Shown: positions 8,262-61,858 of the stretch, in pieces | Layout: every line of letters begins with the position of its first letter | Numbering within the stretch: position 1 is the first letter of the stretch | Assembly: GCA_003167255.1 (NCBI GenBank) | Contig: PMTR01000124.1 | Coordinates: 1-64,000, forward strand | Origin: Bryobacterales bacterium | GTDB taxonomy: Bacteria > Acidobacteriota > Terriglobia > Bryobacterales > Bryobacteraceae | Direction: 5' to 3' | Length of the DNA: 64,000 nt | Translations under genes and position numbers: made by a program | The notes under the pieces: generated by a model | The model's input: only the letters and a program-made list of their open reading frames with translations | Told to the model about the DNA's origin: nothing | The model's database searches: none

Positions 8262-8269
8262 GGTTTGGC

Positions 8270-35744: not shown

Positions 35745-37604
35745 TCAGCGCGGATCCAGCCGCCGAATCTCGAGATTGCTGGCACGCTGCCCACCGGCTA
35801 ACCCGCGACCCAGATCCCGCGTTCCGAACGCCAGGCCTGCCGTGCCCTGGTTGACACCGACGGCGGGGGGGCCCAGCCAAACCGGGGGAATCTTCACGCT
35901 CGTCACCCGATTGTCGCCCTGGTCAAACGAAAGCGTTTTGCCATCCAACCGGACTTTTAGGCTATCGCCGCGGGCTTCCATTTCCAGATGATGATACACA
36001 CTCGCGTCAAAACCGGTGTCCGGCTCCGAAAAGGCCACCAGGCTCCAGGGATTGAGCCGTTTGATCCGCACCATGCCCGTCGATTCGAGCTGTACCCAAT
36101 AGCCGGCTGATGTGCCGCCAATCAACCCGTCGCCGGCGGACGCCTGGCGACTGCGAAAGTACGGTCCGCCCAGCGTGGGCTTTCCCTCGTCACTAAGCGG
36201 CACCATCAGGTCCACTGCGATGCGCAGATCCTGCCCGGCATCCGCTCCTTCAATGTTGGCCAGGCCGCAATCGTTTTGCGCGCGCGCCAACTGAATGCCG
36301 GCGAGGTCTTTTCCGCGATTCCAAAACGGGGTGGAAAGATCTTGCGGGCCGCGGCTCCCGATCGATGTATCGCCATTGAAAACGGGCAGGTAATAATATT
36401 GGTCCAGGTCATGGAGACCGGCCGAGCAGCGATAGATTCCTGTGAGCCCGGCCGGGCTGAGCGCGCTGGGAAAGACGCGGACGTCGTCGATAGTGCCCCG
36501 AAAACTGGCGCCTGAAAGGATGAAACCGCCGATCTTCCACGTACCGGTTCGCTCAGTTGCCGGCTCGATGGCCAGCCGTTGTTCCGCGTCCACCTCGCCG
36601 TCCACGAAAATGCGCGCGGTCTTGGCTGAACCGCCGCCGTACGAAGCCGCCACAAAATGCCACGCGCCGTCGGCCCAATGGCCGGCGCCTGTCACAGATC
36701 CGCCAAGCCCGAAAAGCAGGCGCCCATCGGATTGCAGATAGAGTGTCAGGCGTTCCCGCGTTGGGCCGCGAAATGCCGATCCGTAATCGAACAGCGCGCC
36801 CTGATCCACGAAAGGCAGCGCTACTTTGAACCAGGCGGTGATGGTGCGCGCGGAATTGGCCGCCGGCAGCGCGTCGCTTGGTCCGGAAACGGCCGTTTGG
36901 AGCCCGTCAAACCACAGGCCGTTGCCTAGCTTGCCCGGCATCACGCGGACGTTCGCGGTCACCGTCCCCTGGATTCCGTGGCCGCTCGCATCGAGTACCT
37001 TCCCGCCGCGCACATCGTCCAGCTTCCACCACGCCGCCTCGCGATTGAACCGGGCCGGCGGCGAGCCTTTCCGGGAGCGCAATGTTACCGCCACGGCTGC
37101 CATGAGCAGGACTGCCGCGGTGATCGCGATGGCGGCGCGCGCCAATCGCCGCCGGGCCGGAAGCGTTGGCGCGGACGGTTCCAACCGCGTTTCGGCTTCG
37201 GCATTCGCATCGCCGCCAATACATTCCACCTGCGCCATCAATCCATAGCCCATCTTGGGGAAGGTCTTGATGATCCCGGCGCCCTTGGGATCACCTCCGA
37301 ACGCCCTCCTCAGTTCCATTACGCTCTGCACCAGCACGCCATCGGAGACGTTGGCGCCTCCCCAGACTTTTTCGATTAGCTCTTCCTTGGACACCAAGCG
37401 ATTGTGGTGTTCTGCCAGGTAGAGGAGAAAACGGTAAGTCTTGGGCCGGAGAGCGAGGATCTCGCCGCCGCGGCGGACGGATGCCTGAATGGGATCGATC
37501 TCGACTCCAGCAACCCGGTAGATCAGTGCTTTAGTCGAAATTTCGCCGTTTTTTCGCCCGGCTTTCGAGACGGTGGAAGACTGCTGCGCCATACTGTGGC
37601 CCAA
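35745..37604 (-). CDS. Transmembrane winged-helix (CadC/ToxR-type) regulator with two LamG/concanavalin-like outer domains
   Basis: N-terminal EILALRPKTYRFLLYLAEHHNRLVSKEELIEKVWGGANVSDGVLVQSVMELRRAFGG (Trans_reg_C), TM segment AAIAITAAVLLMAAVAVTL, then AAWWKLDDVRGGKVLDASGHGIQGTV.. LamG-like. Confidence 0.85.
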   Translation of the reverse strand: MGHSMAQQSSTVSKAGRKNGEISTKALIYRVAGVEIDPIQASVRRGGEILALRPKTYRFLLYLAEHHNRLVSKEELIEKVWGGANVSDGVLVQSVMELRRAFGGDPKGAGIIKTFPKMGYGLMAQVECIGGDANAEAETRLEPSAPTLPARRRLARAAIAITAAVLLMAAVAVTLRSRKGSPPARFNREAAWWKLDDVRGGKVLDASGHGIQGTVTANVRVMPGKLGNGLWFDGLQTAVSGPSDALPAANSARTITAWFKVALPFVDQGALFDYGSAFRGPTRERLTLYLQSDGRLLFGLGGSVTGAGHWADGAWHFVAASYGGGSAKTARIFVDGEVDAEQRLAIEPATERTGTWKIGGFILSGASFRGTIDDVRVFPSALSPAGLTGIYRCSAGLHDLDQYYYLPVFNGDTSIGSRGPQDLSTPFWNRGKDLAGIQLARAQNDCGLANIEGADAGQDLRIAVDLMVPLSDEGKPTLGGPYFRSRQASAGDGLIGGTSAGYWVQLESTGMVRIKRLNPWSLVAFSEPDTGFDASVYHHLEMEARGDSLKVRLDGKTLSFDQGDNRVTSVKIPPVWLGPPAVGVNQGTAGLAFGTRDLGRGLAGGQRASNLEIRRLDPR

Positions 37605-37670
37605 GTAATTATATCCGGCCTCGCTTGGACTATACCAGGACCGCGCCGGAAACAGGAGGGAATACTACAA

Positions 37671-40600
37671 ATGTTCCGGAAGCGGGCGAGTGGGATTTGG
37701 AAAGGGGGGCTGGGTTTACTCCTGGCGGTGGCGCTGCGGGCTCAGTCGCCAACGCCCGTTGTCTATCAATACGACACTATTTCGATCAGTCCGCAAGTGC
37801 AATTCGGTTGTCCCCTATGGGGCGTCGGGAACGGCGTACCGAGCGGCGGGACGGTTAGGGTCACTCTGGACGCCAGTTGCAACGACCCGGCCTTTCCGAC
37901 GTTGCCGAATGGTGGGGAAACCGTAGCAAGCGCGTCGATCTTGATCACCTTCGCGCCCGGTCCCTTCACCGGGACATACAATGCAGCGGGGAACATTTTC
38001 ACCCTAACGTCCCCCTCCTCCGCAACCATCACCGCTACCCTCAACAGCACCGCCGCCAATGTGACTTGGGGAATCGAGGCGGGGGGGGAATTTCCGGACT
38101 TCAGCAATTCGTGCATCAACTTCCCAACGAAAGCTGGAGCCGCCACGCAATTGACCGCGACGTGCACCAGCTCAAGATTCGATGTCGGCTTCGATAGCCA
38201 GGGCCCAAGCATTTCCGAGGCAGTGGACGTTCACTTTAAAACCCCGACCCAGAATTATCTGCTCTCGGTCGATTTGATATTTCGGCCGAGTGCGCAGGGA
38301 GATTTGACAGTGACCCGCATTATCCCCGTCCAGGTGATTCACAGTTCCGACGAAACCATACCGATGATCGCCAACAAGCCCACCGTAGTGCGGGTCTACG
38401 TCAAGAGCGTTGGACAGAACCCCCAGCCAGTGAATGGCGTTAGCGCGCAGTTGCACGTCGCGACCTCCAAATTCACCCGCACGCTGGAGCCCTTTAACGG
38501 CCCGATCACGGCGCTTCCGTATACGAGTACGCTTCCGCCTACCGATCCGCCGGATTTCAATGAAGCGACCTTGGATTTCCGCTTGCCGGGCGACCTGATC
38601 GGTCCCGGCGCATTCAGCCTGCAAGCCCAGGTAGTTCCGCCGCCCGGCTTCCAGGACGCGAATCCCGCCAACGATTCGCTGCAGACCACGATTACGATGC
38701 AGCCACAGCCGCAAGGACCGAGCCCCGCCGTCAAAGGTACCTGGACCATAGGCTATATCTCCATCTGTACGCAACAGAATAACCAGCCACCGGTTTGCCC
38801 GCCGAACGATGTGGGCGCTCTATCCTATTTCGTGACGGCTCTTTTTCCGGTCGCCTTAAGGGGTGTGAACTTCATCGAAGCCGCGCACATCACGAGGCCA
38901 TACACCGCCTCCGACATCAGTACGAAAGATGGATATTACGCGTTGATAGCTCCGCTGCGCAAGTATTACCACCGTCTGCTGGCAAACCACATAGTGGTAG
39001 ATAACCTCATCGGATTCGTCCCGCCACCGGGGCCTTATGGCGGCATCGCGGACTTGAAGTCACCCCCGGATGTCCCTAACGTTGTGAGCACCGAAGAGGC
39101 CAGAGTCGCAGCGGTCACCGCGTACGCGAACGCAAGGGATTTCACGGCGAAAAACGTTGCTCATGAATTAGGTCATCTCGTGGGGTTGCGGCACACGAAT
39201 TTGAACCAACCTCCGGCTTGCCTCAAGAAAGCCGAAGACTCTTGCACCACATGGCCGTATCAAGACCCAACCATTCAATACCCCGGCTACAATGTCGGAC
39301 TCGAGACTTTGGTCCCCAAGAGTTTTTTCGACATCATGTCTTATTGCTCGGACCCTGCCGCGGACAATATCTGGATCTCGCCTTTCGATTACGTGACTCT
39401 CTTTCAGAACAACCTGGCGCCTTCGGTAGCCCCGGAGAACTCGACCGAGGCTTGCAACCCCATTCTGGATCTACTCCCGGCATCCATATCGAGAACGTTT
39501 TCGCGGCAAAGTGCAGGCTTCTCGACCGTCTTCCCGCAAGCCAACGGCCCCGCCCCGTCAAGCCGGGCGCAGGTACAGGCAGCCGCGCAAACTCTGGTGC
39601 TGGTAAGCGGAACGGCTAATCGCGATGGCAGTCCTGGAACACTGGATGCCGCGTTTCCGCTCACCACTACCGAGTCTCCCTCCACCAATATTCCTTCCGG
39701 CAACTACTGTCTGCGCTATTCCGGCGCCGCCGGAACCTTGGGAAGCACATGTTTCAACCTGGCATTTTTCGCAATGGAGAGTGCCACACAACTGAACCAG
39801 GAGTCATTTTCCTTGCTGGTGGCGCAGCCGTCGGGCACTACCCGGATCGATCTGGTAACCGGCGGGCAGGTGGTGGCATCGCTGGTTGGCGGCGCGGCGC
39901 CTCCTTCGGTGAGAATCTCCGCGCCCACCGCGGGCTCCACCTGGGACGCTTCGGTTCCGCAATCCATGACTTGGACCGGCAACGGATCGGGACCGAACAG
40001 TCTTATGTACATGGTGGACGCCAGCTCCGATGGCGGCAATACCTGGATTCCGTTGACTGACACCATCTCGGATGTCTCGCTTCAGGTGGATGCCTCCCAT
40101 TTACAGGGTCCGCAGGTATACTTCCGCGTCACCGCCAGCGATGGCCTTAACAGTTCCGCGGCGCAAGTGGGTCCGGTCACGCTCACGCAGACCGCGAAGC
40201 TGGCGGTGTCGCCCACTTCAGTGGATTTCCGAAATGGATTGATCTCGCAGCCGGTAAGCCGGCAGGTGACGCTGACGAATTCGGGCAGCGCCCCCGTCCA
40301 GATCGCTTCCGTCAACTTCAGCGATCCTTCCTTCACGCTAGACTCTCCGTCTTTGCCGGTGACCGTTTATCCGGGGGCGAGCGTGCCGCTCAATCTGGCT
40401 TTCCAGCCTTCCGCGGCGGGGGCGAAGAGCGCCACCATGACGATCGCCAGCAACGCCACAGCGACTCCTTCCATCACCGTGCCGCTGAAAGGCAACGGAC
40501 TCACCGTGACCGCGCCCGACGCATCGGCCAGTCCTTCGACGCTCGATTTCGGTACGGTTACCGTGGGCGCAAGTGGGTTGCAAACGGCCACACTGCAGAG

Positions 40601-43511
40601 CTTCGGACCGGCGCCGCTGCAGGTGAACTCGGTGAATGTATCGGGCGCCGGCTTCGCTCTAGTAACGCCCCAACCGGCTTTTACGCTCGCCCCCAATGGC
40701 ACGCTGGCGATTGCCGTTCAGTTCGTGCCGCAGAGTACGGGGGTTGCTACAGGCTCTCTTTCGATTTCGACCAGCGACCCGGCGCATTCCAACATCGCTA
40801 TCTCGCTCAAAGGGTCGGCGGTGACTCAACTGGGTGGCACGTCGCCGCTCATTACTCCCGCCGGCGTGGTGAATGCCGGCAGCTTCGCGGGGGGAGGAGT
40901 TTCGCCGGGCGAGATCGTGACCGTGTTCGGAAGCAATATCGGTCCACTGTCGCTCGCCCGCGTGCAAGTAGCCGATGGCCAGTTAGCCACCTCCGCCGGA
41001 GGCACACAGGTTTTATTCGACGGCACTCCGGCGCCGATGATCTATGCCGTTTCGGGACAGGTGAGCGCCATCGTTCCGTATGAGGTTTCAGGCGAAGCCG
41101 TCACCCAGGTACAGGTTGTTTACAACGGAACTGCTTCCAATACGGTGGAAGTCCCGGTGGCGCTCACCGCGCCGGCACTGTTCACTGCCTACGCTTCCGG
41201 CAAAGGACCGGGAGCGATTCTCAATCAGGATTCCACGATCAACTCCGCGGCCAATCCGGCCGCGCAAGGGTCGATCGTAATTCTCTACGGGACGGGCGAG
41301 GGCCAAACTTCTCCGTTAGGCGCCGACGGTCTGCTGGCGAATTCCTCAACCTTGCCGGCGCCGTTTGCGCCGGTGACGGCGACCATCGGCGGACAGAGTG
41401 CAAAAGTGCTTTACGCGGGAGCCGCGCCCAGCCTGGTCGCGGGTGTCCTCCAGGTCAACGCCGTACTTCCGGCCAACATCGGCGGCGGCGCCCAGCCGGT
41501 GGTGCTGACTGTGGGCGGCGTGGCGAGCCAGACCGGAGTGACCGTAGCCATCGCTGGCACGGCAACTAGCGCTATTGGCGTCTCGCCGTCGGCCGTCAAT
41601 TTCGGTTCGGTTCAGGTGGGACAGAAGAGCGCTCCGGTGACCGTTACGATTCAGAACACCGGTTCGGGCGCCTTAACCGTCAGCGGCGTCAGTATCAACG
41701 GCGCCCAGTTCGCCGCGACAGGAGTGCCGGCGCTGCCATTCACCATTGCGGCCGGTGGACAAAGCTCGTTCCAGATCGCCATGACGCCAACTTCGGCGGG
41801 GACGCAGACCGGTACGTTGACGATTGCAAGCAACGATTCCAAGAACCCCTCGCTTCTCGTTTCGCTTACCGGAACCGGGACCGCCGTCGCGCCGCAGATT
41901 CCAAACCCGGCGAGTCTCAACTTCGGAACAGTGCAGGTAGGCACGTCCAAGACGCTCGCCTTGTCATTCAGCAATACGGGTACGGGCGCGGCCACCATCA
42001 CCGCATTTACTCCGTCCGGCGCCGGTTACACTGCGAGTCTTGCCTCCGGAGAGTCTCTGCCGTTCACGCTCAACCCCAACGCCGCATTTACCCTGAACGT
42101 GACGTTCACTCCGGCCACAGCCGGTACGCTTACGGGCTCCGTGACCATTGCAGTGAAAGAGATCGCGGCGGTGACCGCCAATCTGACCGGTGTCGGATCG
42201 GCGGCATCGATTACCGTCAGCCCCACTTCGCTCGCATTCGGCAACGTCAACGTCGGCCAGACCAGCGCTGCCAAAACGGTGACGCTCACTAACAGCGGGT
42301 CGGCCAACGGCAGTGTCACGCTCAGCACCAGCGGGCCTTTTGCCGTCTCACCGGCCAGCCTGAGCGTGCCAGCCAATGGTACGGCGACGGCCTCCGTCAC
42401 GTTCGCGCCCACCGCGGCCCTGTCCTCAACCGGTTCGCTCACTGTCAGTGGAGTGGCGACGCCGGTCGCGTTGACGGGCACCGGCGTCGCCGTACAGAAA
42501 GGAGGCGGAACGGGCAACATCGTCTATCTCAAAGTGGAGGGCGGCCAGTACGATGCCGCCTCGCACACGCTAAAAACCATCGCCTCCACCTGGGATACCG
42601 ATAACACAACGCAGAACTGGATGATCGGGATTTCCGCCGTCGGCCTGTCGAACCCGCTGCTGAATAATCCGGGGAAAGCGATCAACATTCCAGCCGGCAG
42701 TTACTATGCATATTTCACTCCGAATACGTGGGGTAGCGATATCCGAATCACGGTGGGCTGGGCCGATAAGACCACCGACATCTCTTATTTCCACGTGGCC
42801 GGATACGGAGTGGCCCTTCCGTGGCCGAACGAAGATGGTACGAACAATATCACGGTGACCTATGACAGCACCGCCGTGACGCCTAACTACCCGTGCCGGG
42901 TATTTCAGGCCGCGGCCGCGCCCGGCTGCTCGGCCGCGGGCGATGTCCTACTGCTGAAGATTCTCGGTGGGACCGGCGGCGGTGCCACGACAACCAGTGA
43001 CGTCACGCTCAAAGCCGATGGTGGCACGTTCAACGCCGAAGCTGGATTACCAGGCGGCGCGGCCCTCGCCTATTTCGTCACGCGGCTGACGCCGCCGTCC
43101 TATCCAGCCACGCTCAAGTCAGTGCAGATCTATTTCTCTACGCGCGCCGATGGTCTGCCAGTGAACACACCCATCTCCGTAATCGCGGCATCCAACCCCG
43201 GCGGCTCGTCGACGCTTAGTTTATCCGGGAATCCGGACATCGTGGCGTCCTCGGTGACCGGCCACGACGCGTTTCTTACGTTCAATGTTCCGGCCCGTAC
43301 GATCACTTCGGGCGATTTCGCGGTCGGTTTCGCCGTGGCGAACCCGGCCAACATCTATCCCGCCGATCTCGACCAGGCCAGCCCGTCGCAGCAGCGATCA
43401 TACGTCTCACTCGATGGCAAGACCTTTTATCTGATGGACTCCATTGGTTCCAGCGGCAATCTGGCCATTCGGGCCGTGGCGACGGTAAACAGCACCTCGG
43501 GGGTTCAATAG
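37671..43511 (+). CDS. Giant exported protein: metzincin-like HELGHLVGLRH, internal TIGR03437-like segment, ASH/Ig-like repeats
   Basis: RBS CAGGAGGGA; NVAHELGHLVGLRHT..DIMSYC; repeats ..SPTSVDFRNGLISQPVSRQVTLTNSGSAPVQI.., VNFGSVQVGQKSAPVTVTIQNTGSGAL.., LAFGNVNVGQTSAAKTVTLTNSGSA. Confidence 0.85.
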   Translation: MFRKRASGIWKGGLGLLLAVALRAQSPTPVVYQYDTISISPQVQFGCPLWGVGNGVPSGGTVRVTLDASCNDPAFPTLPNGGETVASASILITFAPGPFTGTYNAAGNIFTLTSPSSATITATLNSTAANVTWGIEAGGEFPDFSNSCINFPTKAGAATQLTATCTSSRFDVGFDSQGPSISEAVDVHFKTPTQNYLLSVDLIFRPSAQGDLTVTRIIPVQVIHSSDETIPMIANKPTVVRVYVKSVGQNPQPVNGVSAQLHVATSKFTRTLEPFNGPITALPYTSTLPPTDPPDFNEATLDFRLPGDLIGPGAFSLQAQVVPPPGFQDANPANDSLQTTITMQPQPQGPSPAVKGTWTIGYISICTQQNNQPPVCPPNDVGALSYFVTALFPVALRGVNFIEAAHITRPYTASDISTKDGYYALIAPLRKYYHRLLANHIVVDNLIGFVPPPGPYGGIADLKSPPDVPNVVSTEEARVAAVTAYANARDFTAKNVAHELGHLVGLRHTNLNQPPACLKKAEDSCTTWPYQDPTIQYPGYNVGLETLVPKSFFDIMSYCSDPAADNIWISPFDYVTLFQNNLAPSVAPENSTEACNPILDLLPASISRTFSRQSAGFSTVFPQANGPAPSSRAQVQAAAQTLVLVSGTANRDGSPGTLDAAFPLTTTESPSTNIPSGNYCLRYSGAAGTLGSTCFNLAFFAMESATQLNQESFSLLVAQPSGTTRIDLVTGGQVVASLVGGAAPPSVRISAPTAGSTWDASVPQSMTWTGNGSGPNSLMYMVDASSDGGNTWIPLTDTISDVSLQVDASHLQGPQVYFRVTASDGLNSSAAQVGPVTLTQTAKLAVSPTSVDFRNGLISQPVSRQVTLTNSGSAPVQIASVNFSDPSFTLDSPSLPVTVYPGASVPLNLAFQPSAAGAKSATMTIASNATATPSITVPLKGNGLTVTAPDASASPSTLDFGTVTVGASGLQTATLQSFGPAPLQVNSVNVSGAGFALVTPQPAFTLAPNGTLAIAVQFVPQSTGVATGSLSISTSDPAHSNIAISLKGSAVTQLGGTSPLITPAGVVNAGSFAGGGVSPGEIVTVFGSNIGPLSLARVQVADGQLATSAGGTQVLFDGTPAPMIYAVSGQVSAIVPYEVSGEAVTQVQVVYNGTASNTVEVPVALTAPALFTAYASGKGPGAILNQDSTINSAANPAAQGSIVILYGTGEGQTSPLGADGLLANSSTLPAPFAPVTATIGGQSAKVLYAGAAPSLVAGVLQVNAVLPANIGGGAQPVVLTVGGVASQTGVTVAIAGTATSAIGVSPSAVNFGSVQVGQKSAPVTVTIQNTGSGALTVSGVSINGAQFAATGVPALPFTIAAGGQSSFQIAMTPTSAGTQTGTLTIASNDSKNPSLLVSLTGTGTAVAPQIPNPASLNFGTVQVGTSKTLALSFSNTGTGAATITAFTPSGAGYTASLASGESLPFTLNPNAAFTLNVTFTPATAGTLTGSVTIAVKEIAAVTANLTGVGSAASITVSPTSLAFGNVNVGQTSAAKTVTLTNSGSANGSVTLSTSGPFAVSPASLSVPANGTATASVTFAPTAALSSTGSLTVSGVATPVALTGTGVAVQKGGGTGNIVYLKVEGGQYDAASHTLKTIASTWDTDNTTQNWMIGISAVGLSNPLLNNPGKAINIPAGSYYAYFTPNTWGSDIRITVGWADKTTDISYFHVAGYGVALPWPNEDGTNNITVTYDSTAVTPNYPCRVFQAAAAPGCSAAGDVLLLKILGGTGGGATTTSDVTLKADGGTFNAEAGLPGGAALAYFVTRLTPPSYPATLKSVQIYFSTRADGLPVNTPISVIAASNPGGSSTLSLSGNPDIVASSVTGHDAFLTFNVPARTITSGDFAVGFAVANPANIYPADLDQASPSQQRSYVSLDGKTFYLMDSIGSSGNLAIRAVATVNSTSGVQ

Positions 43512-50135: not shown

Positions 50136-53078
50136 GTGTTGCTCCGAATGCTCTTCGCCGCCTTGTTAGCTGCGGCCTCATCCCGGGGGGCATCCTACTA
50201 CACCCTCCGCCTGGACGACCCCAAGGCCGTCTACCTCACCCCTGACACCTTCCCCGTCCGCGGCGACGGTCTCGCCGACGATACCGCGGCCCTGCAGCAG
50301 GCCATTGATAAGGTTCAGGAAACCACCAGCCAGGGAATCGTCTTCGTTCCCCAAGGCCGCTACCGCCTGACGAAGACCGTCAACATCTGGCCCGGCATCC
50401 GCGTGATCGGCTATGGAGCTGCCCGCCCCGTCTTCCTCTTGGGCGAAAGCACTCCCGGCTACCAGGACAAGGACAATGAGCGCTACATGATCTTCTTTGC
50501 CGGTAGCCGGCCCGGCGCGGGACGCGGGGGTGGCGGTGGCCGGGGAGCCGCCGCCGGGAGAGGCGCCGCCGGCGGTCAACCCCCCGATGCCAGCCCCGGC
50601 ACCTTCTACTCCGCCATCAGCAACATCGATCTCGAGATCCGGGACGGCAATCCCGGCGCCGTCGGCGTCCGTGCCCGCTACGCCCAACACTGCTTCATGG
50701 CGCACATGGACTTCCGCATTGGCTCCGGCCTCGCCGGCATTCACGAAGCCGGCAACGTGGGCGAGGACCTTCATTTCTATGGCGGCCAGTACGCCATCTG
50801 GACCCGCAGACCCTCACCGGGCTGGCAGTACACGGTGGTCGACTCCACCTTCGAGGGCCAACGGGAAGCGGCCATCCGCGAACGCGAAGCCGGCCTCACG
50901 CTCATCCGCCCGCACTTCCGCAACGTCCCCACTGCCATCTCCATCGACGCCGGCGCCCCCGACGAGCTCTGGGTGAAGAACGGCCGTATGGAAGACATCA
51001 CTGGCCCAGCCGTCATCGTCAGCCTGGAAAACAACGCGCGGACCGAGATCAACCTCGAGAACGTGGTCTGCCGGGGTGTTCCCGTATTTGCCGCCTTCCG
51101 CGAGAGCGGAAAGAAGGTCGCCGCCCCAGCCGGCATCTACGAGGTGAAGGTCTTCTCGCACGGCCTGAACTACACCGATATCGGCGGCGTCCCCGCCACG
51201 CGCGACGTCTTCGAAGCCAGCCCGCTCCCCGTCATGCCGGCCCCGGTTCAGTCCGACCTCCCCGACCTGCCGCCGCGCGACTCCTGGGTCAACATCCGCA
51301 CGCTGGGCGCCATGGGCGATGGCGCGACTGACGACACCGCCGTCTTCAAGAAGGCTATCGCGGGAAATCGCGCCATCTACCTGCCCAGCGGCAAGTACGT
51401 GGTCAGCGATACCATCGCGCTCAAGCCCGACACCGTCCTCATCGGACTCCACCCGAGCACCACCCAGATCGACCTGCTCGACTCGACCCCCGCATTTCAG
51501 GGCACGGGCTCTCCGAAGCCGCTGGTCGAGGCGCCTAAAGGCGGCGCCAACATCCTGATCGGCATCGGACTCTACACCAACGGAATCAATCCGCGTGCCG
51601 TGGCGGCCAAATGGATGGCCGGCACGGATTCCATGATGAACGACGTGCGCTTCCTCGGCGGCCACGGAACCAACAGACTCGACGGCACTCGCGAGAACCC
51701 CTACAACAACACCCACACCGCCGATCCCGACCTCAATCGACGCTGGGACAGCCAGTACCCCAGCCTGTGGGTGACCGCCGGCGGCGGCGGGACCTTCTTC
51801 GACATCTGGACACCCAGCACCTTCGCGCAGGCCGGCATGCAGGTCTCCGACACGTCCACCGAGGGACGCGTCTACCAGATGTCCAGCGAACATCACGTGC
51901 GCTATGAGGTGCAACTCCATAACGTCTCCAACTGGCAGATCTACGCGCTGCAGACCGAGGAGGAGCGCGGTGAAGGTGGTTTCGCGCTGCCGCTCGAAAT
52001 CGATGGATCGAGCAATATCACCCTGGCAAACTTCCACATTTATCGCGTGATCAGCACCTTTCAGCCGTTTCCGTGGGCCATCAAAGTTTCCAACTCCCGC
52101 AACATACGGCTGCGCAACATCCACTGCTACAGCAACAGCAAGGTGTCGTTCGACGCGGCGGTTTACGACCAGACCCACAGCGTGGAAATCCGCCAGCGCG
52201 AGTTCGCCTGGCTGACCATTTCCGGCGACGCGCCGCGGGCCCACCCGAAACCGGCTTCCCCGATCCTCGCCGCCGGCGCCAGGGTGGAGAAGCTGGCAGG
52301 TGGCTTCTACAACATTTCGGGAGGCGCCGCCGATCCCGCGGGCGATTTCTATTTCGTCGATGCGAGGTGGCAGAGGATCTATCGCTGGTCGGCCGCGACC
52401 CGCCAGATCTCCACCGTCCTCGATTCTCCGCTCGACCCCGTCAACCTCGCCTTTGACAAAGCGGGCAACCTGATGGTGGTCGGCTACTCCGGAAACGGAA
52501 CCGTCTACACCTTCAAGCCCGGCGCGCCCGAAAGCGAAATCCGCCTTCTGAAAGCCGAGCCCTTCACTCCCCGGCCCGGTATGACCCCGGTGCTGCCGGC
52601 CGGCGACTACCACCTGCAACCAGCCCAGCGGTCCTATCAATATGTTTCGCCCGACGGCTCAACCTTCATCTCAGCCGGCCAGGACTTTGTCAACGGCACG
52701 CTCAGTTGGGGCGTCAAGAGCAGCGACCTGCTGCGCGCCTTCGGATTGGCTCGCGCGGCGCCAGGCAAACCCTATTACCTCACTGACGAATCCGAGCTGA
52801 CCACCTGGTCCGTCAAGGTCGGGCCGGACGGCAACCTGACCGGCCAAGAGCTCTTCGCCGATCAGGGCGGCGAAAGCGTGGCGGTTGACGAGCGCGGCAA
52901 CGTCTACATCGCCGCCGGCCAGATCTACGTCTACGACCCGGCCGGCAAACTGATCGACACCATCGAGGTTCCCGAGCGTCCACTGCAATTGGTCTTCGGC
53001 GGAAAAGATGGACAGACCCTGTTCATTCCCGCGCGCACCTCACTCTACGCCGTCCGCATGCGCATCCGCGGCCGTTGA
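50136..53078 (+). CDS. Exported pectate-lyase-3/GH55-like beta-helix protein
   Basis: Signal peptide; RGDGLADDTAALQQAIDKVQ and MGDGATDDTAVFKKAIAGNRAIYLPSGKYVVSDTI; Gly/Arg-rich insert RPGAGRGGGGGRGAAAGRGAAGG. Confidence 0.8.
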   Translation: MLLRMLFAALLAAASSRGASYYTLRLDDPKAVYLTPDTFPVRGDGLADDTAALQQAIDKVQETTSQGIVFVPQGRYRLTKTVNIWPGIRVIGYGAARPVFLLGESTPGYQDKDNERYMIFFAGSRPGAGRGGGGGRGAAAGRGAAGGQPPDASPGTFYSAISNIDLEIRDGNPGAVGVRARYAQHCFMAHMDFRIGSGLAGIHEAGNVGEDLHFYGGQYAIWTRRPSPGWQYTVVDSTFEGQREAAIREREAGLTLIRPHFRNVPTAISIDAGAPDELWVKNGRMEDITGPAVIVSLENNARTEINLENVVCRGVPVFAAFRESGKKVAAPAGIYEVKVFSHGLNYTDIGGVPATRDVFEASPLPVMPAPVQSDLPDLPPRDSWVNIRTLGAMGDGATDDTAVFKKAIAGNRAIYLPSGKYVVSDTIALKPDTVLIGLHPSTTQIDLLDSTPAFQGTGSPKPLVEAPKGGANILIGIGLYTNGINPRAVAAKWMAGTDSMMNDVRFLGGHGTNRLDGTRENPYNNTHTADPDLNRRWDSQYPSLWVTAGGGGTFFDIWTPSTFAQAGMQVSDTSTEGRVYQMSSEHHVRYEVQLHNVSNWQIYALQTEEERGEGGFALPLEIDGSSNITLANFHIYRVISTFQPFPWAIKVSNSRNIRLRNIHCYSNSKVSFDAAVYDQTHSVEIRQREFAWLTISGDAPRAHPKPASPILAAGARVEKLAGGFYNISGGAADPAGDFYFVDARWQRIYRWSAATRQISTVLDSPLDPVNLAFDKAGNLMVVGYSGNGTVYTFKPGAPESEIRLLKAEPFTPRPGMTPVLPAGDYHLQPAQRSYQYVSPDGSTFISAGQDFVNGTLSWGVKSSDLLRAFGLARAAPGKPYYLTDESELTTWSVKVGPDGNLTGQELFADQGGESVAVDERGNVYIAAGQIYVYDPAGKLIDTIEVPERPLQLVFGGKDGQTLFIPARTSLYAVRMRIRGR

Positions 53079-53344: not shown

Positions 53345-56300
53345 TCATTTGATGGGCAGGCGGGCATCGAGTGAATTCATCTCCGCCACTGTCAGAATCC
53401 GTCCTTTATACACCGCCAGGTATGCCATCTTCCCGTTCAGCGCGGTCATGCCGTCGAAGCTCGCATCTCCGATTCGGAAGGGCTGATTCGTCGCACTGGC
53501 GTAGGTCAGCGTTCCGACTCCATCGATGGCGGTAGGTTTCGCTAACTCGGTCCCGTTGACGTACACGTGAGCCACCGCAGCCGTTGCGACACTCCCATCC
53601 CAGGTCACCGCGAGTTGAGCCCACTGTCCCGCCGCAACCGCTCCGCCCGTCGAGATGACGCGCATGTCCTGGCCGGATTTCTCCACCGTGAGATGCAGCG
53701 CTCCGTTTTGGTCGAATCCAAACAGAAATCCATCGGCGGCATTCTGGTCATTCTTCTCGGCGATTCCAGCCGCGGTCAGGGCGTTGACGAAAACTTTGGC
53801 GACAATGGTGAACTGGCTCGTGGGCAGCTTGTCGAATATCAAATCGGTTCCGGCATTCAGATAGCTGTTCAGATAGCCGCCGCCGTTGAACGTGATCGAG
53901 GGATCGCTGGTGTTCCACGTCGGAATAGCGGCGCCGGCGAAGCTCGCCTGTTGGCCGTCCACAAGGTTCTGGTCCGTGGAGCCTTTCCCCTCGTTCATCA
54001 GGAACAGACCCGCCAGGTTGGTGGAAAGCGGGTTGCTCGAATCGAGTACCGATCCAACCGGGCGGGACGGCACACCAGCCACGCCGCCTCCCGTGCCGGA
54101 TTTGCACTTTCCGGCGCTGCCGGCGTTGAAGATGGAAAGGATCTCCGCCGCGCTCAACGCGCGATTGTAAATCGCTGCCTCATCGATCAGACCGTTGAAG
54201 GGCCGAGGGAGGAAAGAATCTTCGCGTCCGATGAAGACGTTGTGGTTGGTCGCCTGAATCGCACCGGTGGAAGTTGCCGAAGACACCGCTTGGCCGTTGA
54301 CATACAACACGTATTGGCCGCTGGCCGCGTCAAACGTCATAGCCACGTGCGTCCACGCGTTGAGGGGGATGATGCCCCCTTGCGGGTGCGGTTCCCGTCC
54401 TCCCGATTGGTGGATCGCACTGAAGAGATTGAGGCCGCCGGAGCCCGGAACCAGCCACAAGCCATACGCGTCGGAGTCCGCGACGTCGGCGAAGCTCTGC
54501 GCCCACTTGGTGACAATCGCCGCCAGATTCGTTCCCGTAGGCGCAGTGCGCGGATTGATCCACGTCTCGATGGTAATGGCGGAGGTGATCTGGAGATTAG
54601 CGGGATTGCCGGCGGAAACATAGCCGGTGCTGCCGTCAAACTGAAACGCCTGGCCAACCTCGCCGGCAGCGAACGTGGTGCCGCCTTGGATCGTCCCGTT
54701 GTTCGCGCCAGCCGAGTCGTTGGCATTTCCGTCGCCCCTCCACCAACTCACCTGGTTAGCCGGCGGCGTAAAACAGACGGCTACCGGCGTAACGCCGGTT
54801 CCCGTCAGCGCGACGTTCAACTTGCCGCGGGTGGGGTCGGGATCGTTGCTGGTGATGGTCAGCGTGCCTGTTTGCGCCACCGCCGCCACAGGCGCAAAAC
54901 GCACGCTCAGGGGCAGCCCCGCTGCGGGAACAGTGACCGGCAAAGTTGGCGGGGAGACGAGAGAGAATAACGAATTGGTGATATTGAAAGCGGTCAGCGA
55001 TAAGGTTCCTCCGCCTGTGTTGCTGACCGTGAGCGTGATCGCCTTGTTCGCGTTCGTGTTCACGCTGCCAAAATCCAGAGTGGTGGGGGAAACCGAGATG
55101 ACCGGCGTCGCCGCGCCCGTACCTGTGCCGCTGAGGTTGACGGTCAGCGACGGCGTGGCGGGATCGGTGCTGGCAAACGTGAGCGTGCCGCTTTGCGCTC
55201 CGGCCGCCGTGGGAGAAAAGCGGATGGTGACGTACTGGTACGAGCCGAAGCCCACGTCGAACGCGGGCAAGGTAGTCACCAGGAACGGCGGCGAGGTAAT
55301 CACCATGGCGAAGCGCGGATTCGAACCGGTGACGCTATTCACCGTGAGCACCTTGTTGCCACTGTTGTTGACGGTCAATACGATATCCTTCGTCTGTCCG
55401 GCGGGCACGCTGAGGAAATCGGCACTCGGGGGCGAAACCGAAATGATGGGCGCAACGGCGGCAACTCCGGCGCCACTCAGTACAATCGAAGCCGGCGAGT
55501 TGGCATCGTTACTCACCAGCGTAAGCGTCCCGTTGGATGCCGTCGCGGAGGCGGGTGTATAGCGCACGGTAACGGTCTGCGGCGGTCCTCCGGGCGGCAC
55601 GCTGAACGACGCCGCGGTGGTCCGGCTGAAACCGGCGCCGGTCACCGTTACGGAACTCACTGACAGCGCGGCGCTGCCGGTATTCGAGACAGTCACCGAT
55701 AGCTCCTTGAACTGCCCTACGGTCACGTTTCCAAAAGGTAACGAGCTAGCGGATAGACCAAGCTTCGGAAGGGCGGTTGTGTTGCCTTGAACCGCAAGAT
55801 TCACCACTGGAGTGGAATCGCCCGGGAACTGGATCACCAGCGGCAAACTGCCCGAAGGCAGGGTCGCCGGAAGCTGAATGTTTAACTGCACCAGTCCGAC
55901 ATATGTGGGGGTTAAGCCCGCGAAGAGAACTCCGGCCGGCGCTCCGGCAACCGTGACGGTGGGCGTATCCACAGCCATTGCGTACTGCGGCGCGGGCGCG
56001 CCCACGTCGGTGCCAGGAGCGTTGGTCAACTTGCCAATCCCGGTGGCGTACACTACCAAAACCTCATTGGGCGTTGCCGGATTGGAGGGCGTCACGAGTT
56101 GGTTGGAGGCGCCATGGACAATGATGGGATCGATCGCCGTGGCGGTCCGCGCGTAGGTGAATACGCCCACACCGTAGTCCGCTATCGGAACCACTACCGC
56201 GGGAGACGCCACCCCGTTGACGGTCACCACCACTGAGGCGAAGGAGCCGGGCGGAACGTCGGCCGGCGTCTGGAAGTCCATCTGAGTTGCGTTTACGAAA

Positions 56301-59300
56301 AAGATCGGTGCTGGAATACCGTTCACCGCAACGCTCACACCGGCAACCGAAAACGGGAACGGCGCGGAAGGCGCCTGAGCCGCAGTAGAGCCGGGCAGGA
56401 GATTTGAGCCAAAGAGCACCGCCAGCCCTCCGCGCGCCAGCTTCGGAGTATAGCTGGCCGCATTTCCTACGCTACCCGAGGTGATTTGGGGCGAAGTGGC
56501 GCTGGCGCTCGCGCCGGTGCCGCGAATGGCAACGGGGAAGGACGCATGGGTTGGGTCGTTACTGGAAATCGTGATGGTGGCGGTCCGCAAGCCCGTCGAG
56601 CTGGGCGAGAATCGAAGAATCACATCCTGGCCCGCTTGCGAAGAGACGGTTAACGGCGTGGATGGGCCCGCCACTGTGAACTGGGGATCGGAGCTGCGGA
56701 ACGACGTCACATTCAAGTCAGCGGAACCGCCGTTGGTGAGGGAAAGAACCGCCTCTCCTGTCTGCCCCATGGGAACGGTGCCGAAATCGAGCGGCGCCTG
56801 CCCGGCAAAGATGCTGGTCTGGGGAGTGGTGGACACTTGCGCAGACAACGGCACGGTGAACACCGGGGTCACCGGATCGTTGCTCCTGATGGTCAGCGTG
56901 CCGCTTTGATTGCCGGAAGCAGGCGCCAGGAGGTTGACCGTCACGGTGAACTGCCTCCCCACCAATATGGGATACGGGGGCGTCTGCGAAGTTACGGTGA
57001 ACGCGGGATTATCGACGCTGATGCCACTGATGGTCAAGGGGCCGCTTCCGGAGCTGGTGATTCCGATGCTCCCGGTCGCACTCTGGCCAAGAAGGATGTT
57101 GCCGAAATCCAGGGTGGGCGCGGCCGCACCGATCTTGGGCGTCTGCGTGACCGTAAGCGGGCCGACGGTGGCTGTGCCGGAGTTGAGGCCGGTCGCGGCG
57201 ATCACCCGGAAAAACACCTGCGCGCCGCCCATGATCTGGGAAGTGTCGAATGCATACTGTTTGTCGGTGATGTCCGTTGCCATGGGCAGCCAGGTATTGC
57301 CGCCGTCGGCGGAATACAGCACGGCAAACACCACGTCCGGCGCCGCTCCACTAACCGACCAGGTGATGGTGTTGCTGCCTTGCCACCGGTCGCCGCTCTT
57401 CGGCGAAAGGATGGTGACCACCGGATCCTGCGCCGCCGTGGCCGAGGTCAAAAGAGCGCCGCCACGGACCAAGGAGAGTTTCGTGGTTCCCGCCGGCCAG
57501 GGCGCGACGACTGTGAAGAACTGCTGATCGAGACCGGCAATCCCGGTGGCCGACACATCCAGATTGAAACAATACTGGCCCAGCAGGCCGCCCGCATTGC
57601 TGAATTGCAGGCAGTGATTACCCCCCGGTTGAGACGGGGGTTGCGAATGCGCCGTGGTGACGTGGTAGACCGGATCGAACTGGGCTCCCGAGCTATCCCT
57701 CTGAACCGTGCCGCTGACCACCACGTATTCGCTGGTACCGGCAGCCTGAGGCACAGCATGTTCGATCCTGGCTGGCTGCGCGACAGGGGCCTTTTGAAAA
57801 AGGGTTTGGTAATCCGCTGGCGTTATCCAACGGCCGGGAGCGGGATCCATGAGATTGGGTGTATCGGTTGGTACGATGCCGTTGTCAAAGTACCGTGAAA
57901 CGCCAGGAATACCGCTGCTGGAATCCCAACCAACTTCACCCACGTCGCCTACGTGGTCGGTGAGGCCGAACTGATGGCCCAGGCGATGGGCGAGACGAAA
58001 AATGTCGTCGGCTATGCCGAAACGTGGTTGCCAGGAGATCTGGGATGGCGTTCCATGGAAAGCCAGTTTCTCGTACCATGCAATGTCTCCGCCAGCTCGA
58101 TAAATAGGGCCAGTCCAGGCTGCGAGATGATCCATACGGGGTATGAGGGACAGATCATATATGTTGAATACGACAAAGATTTTGTAGAGAAGCCTCGACA
58201 ACTTGAAATCGAAGTAAGGATAGTCGAAAGGGATCTGATTCGGGCCGACAACTGCGGAAAAAACCGGTGGCGCCGGGACCGGGATCTCGTAGAATCGCAT
58301 GACACCGTCCGGAAACGGAAAGGCCGCCCCCGCTATATCGTCGAATATCAGAGCGCTCTTGGGGCAGCTCTGTCCGAGATCCACACATAGAGGCAGAAGA
58401 CCGACATAAAACTCCGCAGGAGCGCTTGCGTTTGTGTAAAACTGTACGTCCTTCTCCGTGTGGGCAGTGTATGGACTGGGTCCGGTGCCAATCGGCACGT
58501 AGTCATGCGCATCGATCGATAGGTGAAATGAGCCGGCTGGTGGGTTTCGCAACTCAAAGTTCAGCGAACTGTACCAGCCATCACGGGGGAATACTGTGGG
58601 CCCGGCATGGGTAGTTTCAAAATCGTCATACCCATTAAGAGTGCCGCTTATCGCGCCAGCGCTTTCGCCATCGGTAGTCACGAAGAATACGCGGACGAGA
58701 ACGGACTTTCCCGCGATTAGGGGCACTGCTGTGTTGTCGGCGTCAGTCTGAATGGACTGCACAACCTCAACGTGATCGATTTTGAGTGGTGACAGTGTTG
58801 ACGGGGTAAAGCTCCATTCGAAGTTCGCGACGACCCCAAAGGTATCGCCGAAGCTGGCCGGGAGTTGACCCTGAATCGCCACCGCCAGGGAGACGGTGGA
58901 CGGACCCCCGTCGATCATATTCGTGACGCCGCCGCACGTAGTACTGGGAGGAGCGTTATTGGCGTTTATGCTGCAACCGACGAACCCATGCCCAGGAGTA
59001 TTGGTGTCATAATACACGCTGATAAGACCGTTGGTGATTCCGGTAAATTTCTGGTTCACGGTGAACTGCGCGGGGGGAGAAACGACGTCATTCCCATTCG
59101 CCGGCGCGCCGATAGTGGTAATGGTGGATGGAGCGGTAATCGAAACCGTGGCGGAGCCGGGCCTGTTTACGTCGGTGGACGTAACTGTGATGGAGCCGGC
59201 CGCCGTGGTTACAGCGATATGGTAGAGCGCGAGCGTGGCCGCATCAGTACCAACCACGGGGTTGAGCGGCGTAAGCGGAATCGTGCTTTGCGCCCACGCG

Positions 59301-59437
59301 AACGGCGCAAGAAGCCGCGCGATAAGGACGAGCCCAGCAACGTTCCGACTCCCAAGGGCTTTCCCGATTGTGATCAATCCCCGTCCAGCGGTCTCCATCC
59401 GACGCAACAAATTCATCGATGGCCATCGGCTCATCAT
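53345..59437 (-). CDS. Giant exported protein: ASH/Ig-like repeats, internal TIGR03437-like segment, two LamG-like domains, degenerate metzincin motif
   Basis: MMSRWPSM.. signal; RLAHRLGHQFGLTDH; VSWWRGDGNANDSAGANNGTIQGGTTFAAGEVGQAFQFDGSTGYVSAG (LamG). Confidence 0.85.
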   Translation of the reverse strand: MMSRWPSMNLLRRMETAGRGLITIGKALGSRNVAGLVLIARLLAPFAWAQSTIPLTPLNPVVGTDAATLALYHIAVTTAAGSITVTSTDVNRPGSATVSITAPSTITTIGAPANGNDVVSPPAQFTVNQKFTGITNGLISVYYDTNTPGHGFVGCSINANNAPPSTTCGGVTNMIDGGPSTVSLAVAIQGQLPASFGDTFGVVANFEWSFTPSTLSPLKIDHVEVVQSIQTDADNTAVPLIAGKSVLVRVFFVTTDGESAGAISGTLNGYDDFETTHAGPTVFPRDGWYSSLNFELRNPPAGSFHLSIDAHDYVPIGTGPSPYTAHTEKDVQFYTNASAPAEFYVGLLPLCVDLGQSCPKSALIFDDIAGAAFPFPDGVMRFYEIPVPAPPVFSAVVGPNQIPFDYPYFDFKLSRLLYKIFVVFNIYDLSLIPRMDHLAAWTGPIYRAGGDIAWYEKLAFHGTPSQISWQPRFGIADDIFRLAHRLGHQFGLTDHVGDVGEVGWDSSSGIPGVSRYFDNGIVPTDTPNLMDPAPGRWITPADYQTLFQKAPVAQPARIEHAVPQAAGTSEYVVVSGTVQRDSSGAQFDPVYHVTTAHSQPPSQPGGNHCLQFSNAGGLLGQYCFNLDVSATGIAGLDQQFFTVVAPWPAGTTKLSLVRGGALLTSATAAQDPVVTILSPKSGDRWQGSNTITWSVSGAAPDVVFAVLYSADGGNTWLPMATDITDKQYAFDTSQIMGGAQVFFRVIAATGLNSGTATVGPLTVTQTPKIGAAAPTLDFGNILLGQSATGSIGITSSGSGPLTISGISVDNPAFTVTSQTPPYPILVGRQFTVTVNLLAPASGNQSGTLTIRSNDPVTPVFTVPLSAQVSTTPQTSIFAGQAPLDFGTVPMGQTGEAVLSLTNGGSADLNVTSFRSSDPQFTVAGPSTPLTVSSQAGQDVILRFSPSSTGLRTATITISSNDPTHASFPVAIRGTGASASATSPQITSGSVGNAASYTPKLARGGLAVLFGSNLLPGSTAAQAPSAPFPFSVAGVSVAVNGIPAPIFFVNATQMDFQTPADVPPGSFASVVVTVNGVASPAVVVPIADYGVGVFTYARTATAIDPIIVHGASNQLVTPSNPATPNEVLVVYATGIGKLTNAPGTDVGAPAPQYAMAVDTPTVTVAGAPAGVLFAGLTPTYVGLVQLNIQLPATLPSGSLPLVIQFPGDSTPVVNLAVQGNTTALPKLGLSASSLPFGNVTVGQFKELSVTVSNTGSAALSVSSVTVTGAGFSRTTAASFSVPPGGPPQTVTVRYTPASATASNGTLTLVSNDANSPASIVLSGAGVAAVAPIISVSPPSADFLSVPAGQTKDIVLTVNNSGNKVLTVNSVTGSNPRFAMVITSPPFLVTTLPAFDVGFGSYQYVTIRFSPTAAGAQSGTLTFASTDPATPSLTVNLSGTGTGAATPVISVSPTTLDFGSVNTNANKAITLTVSNTGGGTLSLTAFNITNSLFSLVSPPTLPVTVPAAGLPLSVRFAPVAAVAQTGTLTITSNDPDPTRGKLNVALTGTGVTPVAVCFTPPANQVSWWRGDGNANDSAGANNGTIQGGTTFAAGEVGQAFQFDGSTGYVSAGNPANLQITSAITIETWINPRTAPTGTNLAAIVTKWAQSFADVADSDAYGLWLVPGSGGLNLFSAIHQSGGREPHPQGGIIPLNAWTHVAMTFDAASGQYVLYVNGQAVSSATSTGAIQATNHNVFIGREDSFLPRPFNGLIDEAAIYNRALSAAEILSIFNAGSAGKCKSGTGGGVAGVPSRPVGSVLDSSNPLSTNLAGLFLMNEGKGSTDQNLVDGQQASFAGAAIPTWNTSDPSITFNGGGYLNSYLNAGTDLIFDKLPTSQFTIVAKVFVNALTAAGIAEKNDQNAADGFLFGFDQNGALHLTVEKSGQDMRVISTGGAVAAGQWAQLAVTWDGSVATAAVAHVYVNGTELAKPTAIDGVGTLTYASATNQPFRIGDASFDGMTALNGKMAYLAVYKGRILTVAEMNSLDARLPIK

Positions 59438-59566
59438 TAGGTTTCCCTCCGTCCCAGCCTTCACGCACCCAGGCGCAGCAGAGTCAGTCTGAACGGGTTG
59501 TAGGAAGAAGTCCTGACTGGGACCTGAGATTTTTCTGAAACCATTGAAAATGGAGGATATTTAGCT

Positions 59567-61348
59567 TTAGCGGACCGTCGGAGGACGATAGGAATTTACA
59601 ACCAGGTTCCGCACCTGCTGGCCTCCGCCGCTGTAACGGGGGGTAGCCATGAAGCCGATGCCGGCGCAACCGGAATTCTTTCCCGGCGGCTTCTGCTCTT
59701 CCCACCTGGCGGGAATCGGCACGGTCGAGACGGTCCGGCCACCCTGGTCGAATACGACTCGCTCGCCGTCCAACGATACTTCCAGGGTTTGCCCCAAGCT
59801 GGCGGCCTCGAGGCGGTGAAACGCATCGGCGGCGAATTCGGGACGGGGCGCGGAATAAGCCACCACCTCGGACGGGTTGAGCCGCCGAACGCGGACTACG
59901 CCGCTGGAATCCAGCAGCACCCAATACCCGGCCGAGGTCCCGCCGATGATCCCGTCGCCGGGCCTTGCGGAACGGCTGCGGAAGTAAGGGCCGGCCGCGG
60001 TCAGGCCGTCGCCGTTCTTTGGCACCCGCACGTCCATGCTGAAGGCCAGGTCCTGCCCGATGTCTGTACCCTGGATGCCGGCGATGGGACATTCGCCGGC
60101 GGCCAGGGAAAACTGGACGCCGCCAAAATCGTTTCCCGTTTGAACAATGGAATGAGAACCGATGTCCGTGAGCGGGGCGCCGGCTTCCGGTCCAAGCACG
60201 GGAAAGAAATAACCGGCCTTGCCTCCGGGCAGGGTGACGTCGGCGGACCGGCTGGAACAGCGGTAGAGAGCCTGCAGTTCGGCCGTGCGCACGGCCCGGG
60301 AATAGACCCGGACATCGTCCAGGTCGCCGCGGAATGCGGTCTGGCTGCCGAACGGTCCACCCAGAAGCCACTTCGGATAGTTCCCCGTGTGCGGCGGCAG
60401 CGGCAGCTTGCCGGAGGCGTCAAGCACGCCATCCACAAATATGTGGGCCAGGTTGGTTGGGGGACCTTCATACACGCCGGAGACGAAGTGCCACGCGCCA
60501 TCCAGCAACGATGTACGGCCGCGGACCGCGCCGGCGGCGGCGTCATATCCGAACCCGATCCTGCCGTTTTGCATCAGCATCAAATGGAAGTTTTGCGTTT
60601 CGATAATGCGCGGCGCGCCGTATCGCAAAATATTGGTATCGTCGCCATTGGAAGAGGAAGTTCTGATCCAGGCCGTGATCGTCCGCGGCGCGGAACCCCG
60701 AGGCAGTTGGTTGAGGCGATCCTCACCTTCCAGGTATCCCCCTGTGCCCGCCGGGAAGTGAAGCGCCTTGCCTCGGATTCCCTCTGCCCACTCGGCCTCG
60801 CCCACCAGCCAACCCGCGTTGGCGCCGTTCCGGGAAGAATCCTGCACGCGGCGTCCAGCGCCCTCATCGAAGCGCCACCAGGCGACCTCGTCATAGCGCG
60901 GTTCGGGTTTCGCGCGCGCCGCTAACCAGAAAGCACCGGCGGCGCAAGCGCACAGCGCCGCTACCACCATCACCGCTCCCGTGGGAAACCCGCGCACCGG
61001 AGCGGCCGCCGGCTCTTTGGGCGCTTCCCGGGTGCCCTCCTCGACGTGGCCAATGAATTGGTAACCCGCCTTCGGCGCGGTTCTGATCCAACGGGGGCTG
61101 CCGCGGTCCTCCGCCAGCGCGATGCGGATATCGCTAATGGACCGGAAGAGCGAGTCGTCGGTGGCTGGCGCTCCGTTCCAGATCCGCTCAATCAATTCAT
61201 CCTTCGAGACCACCTGGTCGCGATGCGTCACCAGGTACAGCAGAATATCGAAGACCTTGTGCCGCAGGTAGACCTCGGCGCCCGCACGGTGCAGCGACCG
61301 CTGCGCAGGATCGAGTTCAAAATCTTCGAAGCGGTATACCGTTCTCAT
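59567..61348 (-). CDS. Transmembrane winged-helix regulator with LamG-like outer domains; paralog of 35745-37604
   Basis: MRTVYRFEDFELDPAQRSLHRAGAEVYLRHKVFDILLYLVTHRDQVVSKDELIERIWNGAPATDDSLFRSISDIRIAL; TM; VAWWRFDEGAGRRVQDSSRNGANAGW; GPYFRSRSARPGDGIIGGTSAGYWVLLDSSGVVRVRRLNP shared with the paralog. Confidence 0.87.
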   Translation of the reverse strand: MRTVYRFEDFELDPAQRSLHRAGAEVYLRHKVFDILLYLVTHRDQVVSKDELIERIWNGAPATDDSLFRSISDIRIALAEDRGSPRWIRTAPKAGYQFIGHVEEGTREAPKEPAAAPVRGFPTGAVMVVAALCACAAGAFWLAARAKPEPRYDEVAWWRFDEGAGRRVQDSSRNGANAGWLVGEAEWAEGIRGKALHFPAGTGGYLEGEDRLNQLPRGSAPRTITAWIRTSSSNGDDTNILRYGAPRIIETQNFHLMLMQNGRIGFGYDAAAGAVRGRTSLLDGAWHFVSGVYEGPPTNLAHIFVDGVLDASGKLPLPPHTGNYPKWLLGGPFGSQTAFRGDLDDVRVYSRAVRTAELQALYRCSSRSADVTLPGGKAGYFFPVLGPEAGAPLTDIGSHSIVQTGNDFGGVQFSLAAGECPIAGIQGTDIGQDLAFSMDVRVPKNGDGLTAAGPYFRSRSARPGDGIIGGTSAGYWVLLDSSGVVRVRRLNPSEVVAYSAPRPEFAADAFHRLEAASLGQTLEVSLDGERVVFDQGGRTVSTVPIPARWEEQKPPGKNSGCAGIGFMATPRYSGGGQQVRNLVVNSYRPPTVR

Positions 61349-61449
61349 CCAGGCCCACGTTGAGCGTCTGCCGCCGAACCCTGAGTACGATTGAGCCGGG
61401 ATTTCCGTTTGGGACCCAACTCCTGTTCAGTATACCCTCGGCCGGCGTT

Positions 61450-61605
61450 CTTGACCCGCGAGTTGCGTTTTCTGCACGCCGGCTGAGAGCCGGCGGCAGC
61501 CAGGATTGGCTGCCCCACCGAGCGGCGGAGCCGCAGCCAAAATGGGTGCACGGCCCGAAGCGCCGACAAGAATGTCGGCGTTGCGGGCTTGGAAGCCCGC
61601 TCCAC
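61450..61605. repeat. Cluster of small intergenic hairpins
   Basis: GCCGGCTgagAGCCGGC, GGCAGCCAggaTTGGCTGCC, GCGCCGACAagaaTGTCGGCGT, GGGCTTggAAGCCC in succession. Confidence 0.45.
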
Positions 61606-61647
61606 GAGGGCTGTGAAATCTTCTCGTGCTGCGAAGACTTTAAAGAG

Positions 61648-61842
61648 TTAGCAGAATGCAGAGTATGCCGCAGACCCCTTGATGAAGAGATCGACCGTGA
61701 ACACTGACGCGAGTTTCTCTGCCTGCTCCTTACTAATGGAACGCTTCCCGCCCAGGACTTCTGAAGCCCGGCCGCGGGTGCCGGGCACAGGCAGCAGGTC
61801 CTTGCCTGTTCGTCCGCTCGTCTCCATCAGGTACCGCTCGTG
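61648..61842 (-). pseudogene. HigA-like antitoxin C-terminal remnant
   Basis: Minus strand ERYLMETSGRTGKDLLPVPGTRGRASEVLGGKRSISKEQAEKLASVFTVDLFIKG..*; no N-terminal part. Confidence 0.6.
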
Positions 61843-61858
61843 GCAGCGTCGAGCGCCC

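Follow-up and report, generated by a model that had tools for sequence, protein, structure and literature searches.

The window analysed here, the 64,000 nucleotides at positions 1 to 64,000 of contig PMTR01000124.1 from the Bryobacterales bacterium assembly GCA_003167255.1, carries two pairs of genes in which a membrane-bound transcriptional regulator adjoins the gene of a giant exported protein. In one pair the regulator R1 (35745..37592, minus strand) is divergent from Gi1 (37671..43511, plus strand, 1946 aa), and in the other the regulator R2 (59567..61348, minus strand), an open frame of 593 aa, is followed by Gi2 (53345..59437, minus strand, 2030 aa). An earlier reading of the bare sequence, the original prediction, had described these as two copies of one module in operon-like order, with R2 directly upstream of its giant and in the same orientation. 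This order holds for R2 and Gi2, which lie on the minus strand with a gap of 129 bp, but not for the first pair. The minus-strand regulator formerly set at 35745-37604 is real, with a better start at the ATG at 37592, and the likeliest start of Gi1 is the ATG at 37671, preceded by GGAGG, in place of 37404; copy 1 is therefore divergent, with a gap of 78 bp.

Anatomy of the regulators and their giants

R1 and R2 are distant paralogs that align end to end (39% identity over R2 residues 3-587, E 3e-106), as the original prediction had proposed from a block common to both proteins, which was recovered in the R2 frame as GPYFRSRSARPGDGIIGGTSAGYWVLLDSSGVVRVRRLNP. Both begin with an OmpR-type winged helix of PF00486 (51.7 bits in R2 and 50.9 bits in R1, Pfam cut-off 26.2), for which the best NCBIfam resemblance is CadC, though far under the CadC equivalog cut-off. 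In R2 this DNA-binding domain (61055..61279, minus strand) is followed on the same strand by a transmembrane (TM) helix predicted from hydropathy (AVMVVAALCACAAGAFWLA, 60920..60976), by a sensor domain of the Laminin_G_3 superfamily identified by Pfam and fold match (D1, 60257..60892) and by a second domain, D2 (59570..60256). D1 was recognized by PF13385 with 77.4 and 64.7 bits in R1 and R2 (cut-off 27.6), and no receiver domain was found by Pfam in either protein. The succession of a DNA-binding domain, one TM helix and a sensor domain in a single chain is the layout of CadC and ToxR, and by their sequences R1 and R2 are classed as CadC/ToxR-type transmembrane regulators of a Bryobacteraceae-type family. 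The order of winged helix-turn-helix (wHTH), TM helix, D1 and D2 is conserved in every full member, and hydropathy placed a single TM helix between the winged helix and D1 in all 25 of the wHTH-D1 proteins examined.

D2, which had been overlooked previously, comprises about 225 residues C-terminal to D1 in both R1 and R2; it matched no Pfam family and a sequence search of the PDB gave nothing useful. AlphaFold models, built from eight sequences each, reached a mean pLDDT of 75 for D1-D2 and 73 for D2 alone. In Foldseek searches the D1-D2 model falls among LamG/ConA-like folds, and D2 alone is a ConA-like jelly roll nearest to CBM66 and L-type lectin domains (CBM66 E 1e-6, TM-score 0.47-0.66, as a fold match only). 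The sensor end is predicted to be lectin-like, of the sugar-binding type. Clostridial neurotoxin binding domains headed the D1-D2 fold list, but with 9-13% identity and a root-mean-square deviation of about 15 Å they reflect the ConA/LamG superfamily fold and are uninformative on toxin function. In every one of the wHTH-D1 proteins with a complete D2, a cysteine at the D1 end and another some 50 residues into D2 are invariant; as the D2 domains borne by giants retain both, a disulfide internal to the D2 unit is probable. Giants in five surveyed loci (L120, L121, L122, L126 and L127) contain arrays of ASH and TIGR03437 domains that include D2 preceded by a DSFNRA motif, and D2 seems to be a domain family that Pfam lacks.

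The domains formerly read in Gi2 were all found with Pfam and NCBIfam, namely five choice-of-anchor D/ASH repeats, one full TIGR03437 (Soli_cterm) domain (55787..56470, minus strand, residues 990-1217, E 4e-50) and two LamG stretches (54140..54637 and 53375..53827, minus strand). TIGR03437 scored 170.6 bits in Gi2 and 229.7 bits in Gi1 (curated cut-off 29.05), and Gi1, Gi2 and a third giant of this genome, Gi3 (L021:8108-13648, on C23), all carry TIGR03437 and choice-of-anchor D domains above curated cut-offs. No LamG domain was found by Pfam in Gi1. These three are the metzincin-type giants of the genome; the N-terminal metzincin-like domain, also missed earlier, is common to 28 giants, most of which carry the metzincin signature HExxHxxGLxH. 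Gi1 and most of its homologs retain this motif together with a conserved Met further on, and the intact zinc motif of Gi1 (HELGHLVGLRH, 39162..39194, plus strand) points to a protease that is probably active. The pattern HExxHxxGxxH/D is absent from Gi2, where HRLGHQFGLTD (57956..57988, minus strand) has the catalytic Glu replaced by Arg, and Gi3 likewise reads HRLGHQFGLxD against HExxHxxGLRH in most homologous giants; given this HRxxHxxGxxD form, Gi2 and Gi3 are apparent pseudo-metzincins, Gi2 being probably catalytically dead and Gi3 probably likewise without protease activity. The zinc site is lost in a few further giants. The best Pfam matches of the Gi1 N-terminal domain (Reprolysin) stayed below cut-off, and a PDB sequence search with the N-terminal domain of the giants gave nothing useful. 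The idea that a degenerate protease motif marks the regulator-linked giants was not convincing, since 4 or 5 of 9 have it and the share among the others is similar.

The gap between R2 and Gi2 (59438..59566) carries a GGAGGG ribosome-binding site before the ATG. A terminator scan of 59300-62000 gave matches at the shuffled rate and the gap is without a terminator-like site, which together with the good ribosome-binding site makes read-through from R2 into Gi2 plausible. A sigma-70 promoter scan of 59300-62000, which covers the gap, gave no match. A -10-like element, TATACT, lies upstream of R2 (61429..61434, minus strand), the divergent region of R1 and Gi1 (37593..37670) has TATAAT towards R1, and a TATAMT element (TATAAT or TATACT) was found in the upstream 100 nt of 7 of 19 regulators, R1 and R2 among them, against 0.7 expected; for the R2 element, TATAMT was noted near the start of six other family members. 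Further upstream of R2, a short frame at 61645-61810 (minus strand) reading RGRASEVLGGKRSISKEQAEKLASVFTVDLFI resembles the end of a HigA-type antitoxin; it is likely a gene remnant and hints at a rearrangement. On the other side, convergent with Gi2, window positions 50136-53078 (plus strand) encode a 980-aa protein with pectate-lyase-like (PF12708) and SMP-30-like domains.

Recurrence and history of the pairing

Of 200 genomes sampled from the same family, 26 gave relatives with a D1-D2 profile, some solely as domains of giants; at E 1e-60 there were none among 395 further genomes drawn from across the phylum. The full-length relatives in a wider collection all belong to Acidobacteriota. Neighbourhoods were read by eye, with export of the giants and other targets judged from hydropathy and domains, and 23 loci were informative, four further loci being cut off or broken. 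In 19 of the 23 the divergent partner of the regulator has an export-type N terminus; it is mostly a giant or a large repeat protein, with PEP-CTERM-type targets in four loci (L022, L106, L110 and L131) and a beta-propeller protein in L109. Two loci, R2 and L119, are co-directional with TIGR03437 proteins, and L125 and L128 gave no clear reading. On the promoter side the neighbour reaches at least 850 aa in 12 of 20 loci; the figure is 18 of 137 for the remaining genes of these loci (Fisher p=1.3e-5) and 3 of 17 for downstream neighbours, one being Gi2. Metzincin-type giants recur next to R1, R2 and the regulators of L031, L115, L116 and L117. The recurring two-gene system that had been proposed is thus real, with the divergent arrangement of R1 and Gi1 as its usual form and copy 2 as the exception.

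The genome encodes four full-length regulators, namely R1, R2, R3 (on C138), which is divergent from a PEP-CTERM protein, and R4 (on C41), whose divergent neighbour is a TIGR03437 protein of 1202 aa. The divergent neighbour of Gi3 is a wHTH protein that carries TPRs in place of LamG. From search tables, 5 of 10 large membrane-type wHTH genes adjoin one of about 80 TIGR03437 genes, against about 0.3 expected for an assumed total of 6,000 genes. PEP-CTERM targets recur across genera at 61% identity, with the neighbour of R3 as the representative in this genome; the coordinates recorded for such proteins are L022:7224-7946 and L106:6960-7727, each on the promoter side of a LamG-type regulator, and the two make a compact pair. 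Two further observations concern the surveyed loci. In L030 a secreted lipase-like protein (7211-9400, minus strand; alpha/beta hydrolase, AHSKGA) is encoded between the regulator gene and a giant with TIGR03437 and LamG domains; 6 bp separate it from the giant, with which it possibly forms a two-gene divergent operon. In two metagenome-assembled genomes (L033 and L034:9944-11248; also L105:9315-10619) D1-D2 stands alone as a secreted protein that has neither a winged helix nor a membrane helix.

A recent tandem duplication of the module, as the origin of the two copies in the window, was rejected. The D1-D2 tree places R2 beside L107, from a different genus (support 98/93), and R1 inside an 11-member clade with R3 and R4 (100/99), and Gi2 is 47-53% identical to Gi3, whose regulator is of the TPR type, as against about 30-33% between Gi1 and either; the separate regulator clades and the closeness of Gi2 to Gi3 argue that the pairs did not arise by a recent duplication of the unit. 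A tree of the winged helices joins the regulator of Gi3, which is of the TPR type, to the LamG-type regulator of L030 (99/96); a further TPR-type regulator is joined to L115 (96/85). As this tree was built on about 119 columns, the grouping is suggestive of an exchange of the outer domain on one winged-helix lineage with the link to giants kept.

Proposed mechanism and competing explanations

The reading that we favour, and hold with somewhat better than even confidence, is control of the neighbouring exported, usually giant, protein by a one-component regulator that spans the membrane and has a glycan-type sensor. The cytoplasmic winged helix would bind the regulator's own promoter region, one helix would span the membrane, and D1 (LamG) and D2 outside would recognize a ligand that is most likely a glycan. 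Its binding would then switch, presumably activate, transcription of the adjoining gene, whose exported multidomain product combines Ig-like ASH repeats, TIGR03437 and LamG domains and often a metzincin-type protease or an inactive relative, and may act at the cell surface. In the usual layout the two genes would be read divergently from a short common promoter, as for R1 and Gi1; in copy 2 the downstream giant would probably be read from the R2 promoter or from one within the 129-bp gap. Such an arrangement points to a cell that, on sensing something outside, makes a matching surface protein of its own. Several points weigh against this. ConA-like folds bind proteins or lipids too, so that a glycan is a presumptive ligand for D1 and D2. 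No operator motif was shared by 19 promoter regions, in which dyads were no better than in shuffles, and the order of copy 2 departs from the divergent layout and could stem from a rearrangement. The export calls rest on hydropathy and domains rather than a dedicated predictor. The neighbours of the regulators are clearly non-random in other genera, so that the random neighbourhoods which would have told against the original prediction were not seen for this family. The giants are often found without a regulator: one adjoins about one-third of those of the metzincin type, and about two-thirds are without one.

A bolder version, which we regard as rather doubtful, is that the outer domains of a winged-helix lineage, either a ConA-like pair or TPR, are exchangeable and that its copies, with a single divergent giant assigned to each, form within one genome a bank of sensor and surface-protein pairs that selects the giant displayed according to the glycan or surface met. 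It is improbable that D1 and D2 sense the exported giant itself or its secretion state instead of an environmental glycan, as a feedback checkpoint on surface assembly: each regulator is paired with one exported protein, and some other giants contain true D1 and D2 domains, in one case (L100) as the divergent target, so that homotypic contacts are thinkable, but the domains borne by giants and by regulators form mostly separate clades with no cognate pairing, and small PEP-CTERM targets without LamG exist. The view in the original prediction, that regulator and giant may recognise one and the same ligand, is very unlikely for an extracellular ligand bound through homologous LamG or D2 domains. 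ConA-superfamily domains are found on both proteins and D2 in both protein classes, and the LamG domains of Gi2 do resemble the outer domain of its regulator at the superfamily level; the comparison proposed at the time revealed no closer kinship, as the regulator D1 profile gave 22 bits on the first and 14 bits on the second LamG of Gi2, of which the first shares 63-67% identity with the LamG domains from Gi3 and L030. A cognate LamG pairing was rejected on these scores and on the separate clades; in addition, Gi1 is without any LamG, and the regulator of Gi3, closely related to Gi2, has TPRs instead. Regulators and giants thus have homologous binding modules in common, and a matched specificity within a pair is unsupported. 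Equally hard to credit is that giant exported genes have expanded throughout the genome and that the neighbourhood follows from this alone, without regulation of one gene by the other and with copy 2 as a chance tandem. Some 80 TIGR03437 genes in the genome and the deviant copy 2 would fit this, but the excess of giants on the promoter side (12/20 vs 18/137), the five of ten large wHTH genes beside TIGR03437 genes and the orthologous pairs conserved across genera speak against it.

Comparison with known systems

Acidobacteriota are abundant in soil and encode dozens of giant exported proteins of obscure role, and the name of TIGR03437 still describes it as an uncharacterised Solibacter domain. 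Where a giant has a dedicated membrane regulator next to it, this offers a direct route to the function of the giant, as the ligand of the sensor would tell when the giant is made. Gi1, Gi2 and Gi3 share their domains with other TIGR03437/choice-of-anchor D giants but add the N-terminal metzincin-like domain and the pairing with a regulator, and in relation to metzincin peptidases Gi1 keeps the canonical motif from which Gi2 and Gi3 deviate. A parallel is offered by the RsgI anti-sigma factors, whose sensor modules are of a kind present on their targets. The RsgI factors of Clostridium thermocellum are reported to span the membrane, sense extracellular polysaccharide and control exported proteins (PMC4711584, PMC12203970); there the control is exerted on a sigma factor by proteolysis, whereas R1 and R2 have a DNA-binding domain in the same chain. 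The N-terminal anti-sigma domain of RsgI was not found by Pfam in R1 or R2, where PF00486 takes its place.

Within the CadC superfamily, MarT activates its neighbour misL, an autotransporter gene of Salmonella pathogenicity island 3 (PMC9214523). A membrane regulator of this superfamily beside the gene of a surface protein is common to both systems, with activation known for MarT and presumed here, but the sensor and target of MarT/MisL are unrelated to those of R1 and R2. MarT acts with a small co-component partner, FidL; in the loci surveyed no such gene was seen downstream of the regulators, where the neighbours are heterogeneous, and the family differs in this from the VtrA/VtrC and ToxR/ToxS type. 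CadC/ToxR-like transmembrane transcription regulators (TTRs) are reported to be more numerous than average in Acidobacteriae (PMC10269533). R1 and R2 resemble TTRs in the N-terminal PF00486 winged helix, the single TM helix, the C-terminal extracytoplasmic sensor and the target that is often adjacent. They differ in the sensor, which is alpha/beta with TPR in CadC and a ConA-like tandem of LamG and D2 here, and in their targets, which are exported giants unlike those of the TTR precedents. A literature search that excluded most subscription journals returned no description of LamG-type sensors on CadC-like regulators or of the regulator/giant pairing. Judged by sequence, the regulators thus belong to a known kind, the transmembrane CadC/ToxR-like proteins, to which the ConA-like sensor and the pairing with a giant appear to be new additions.

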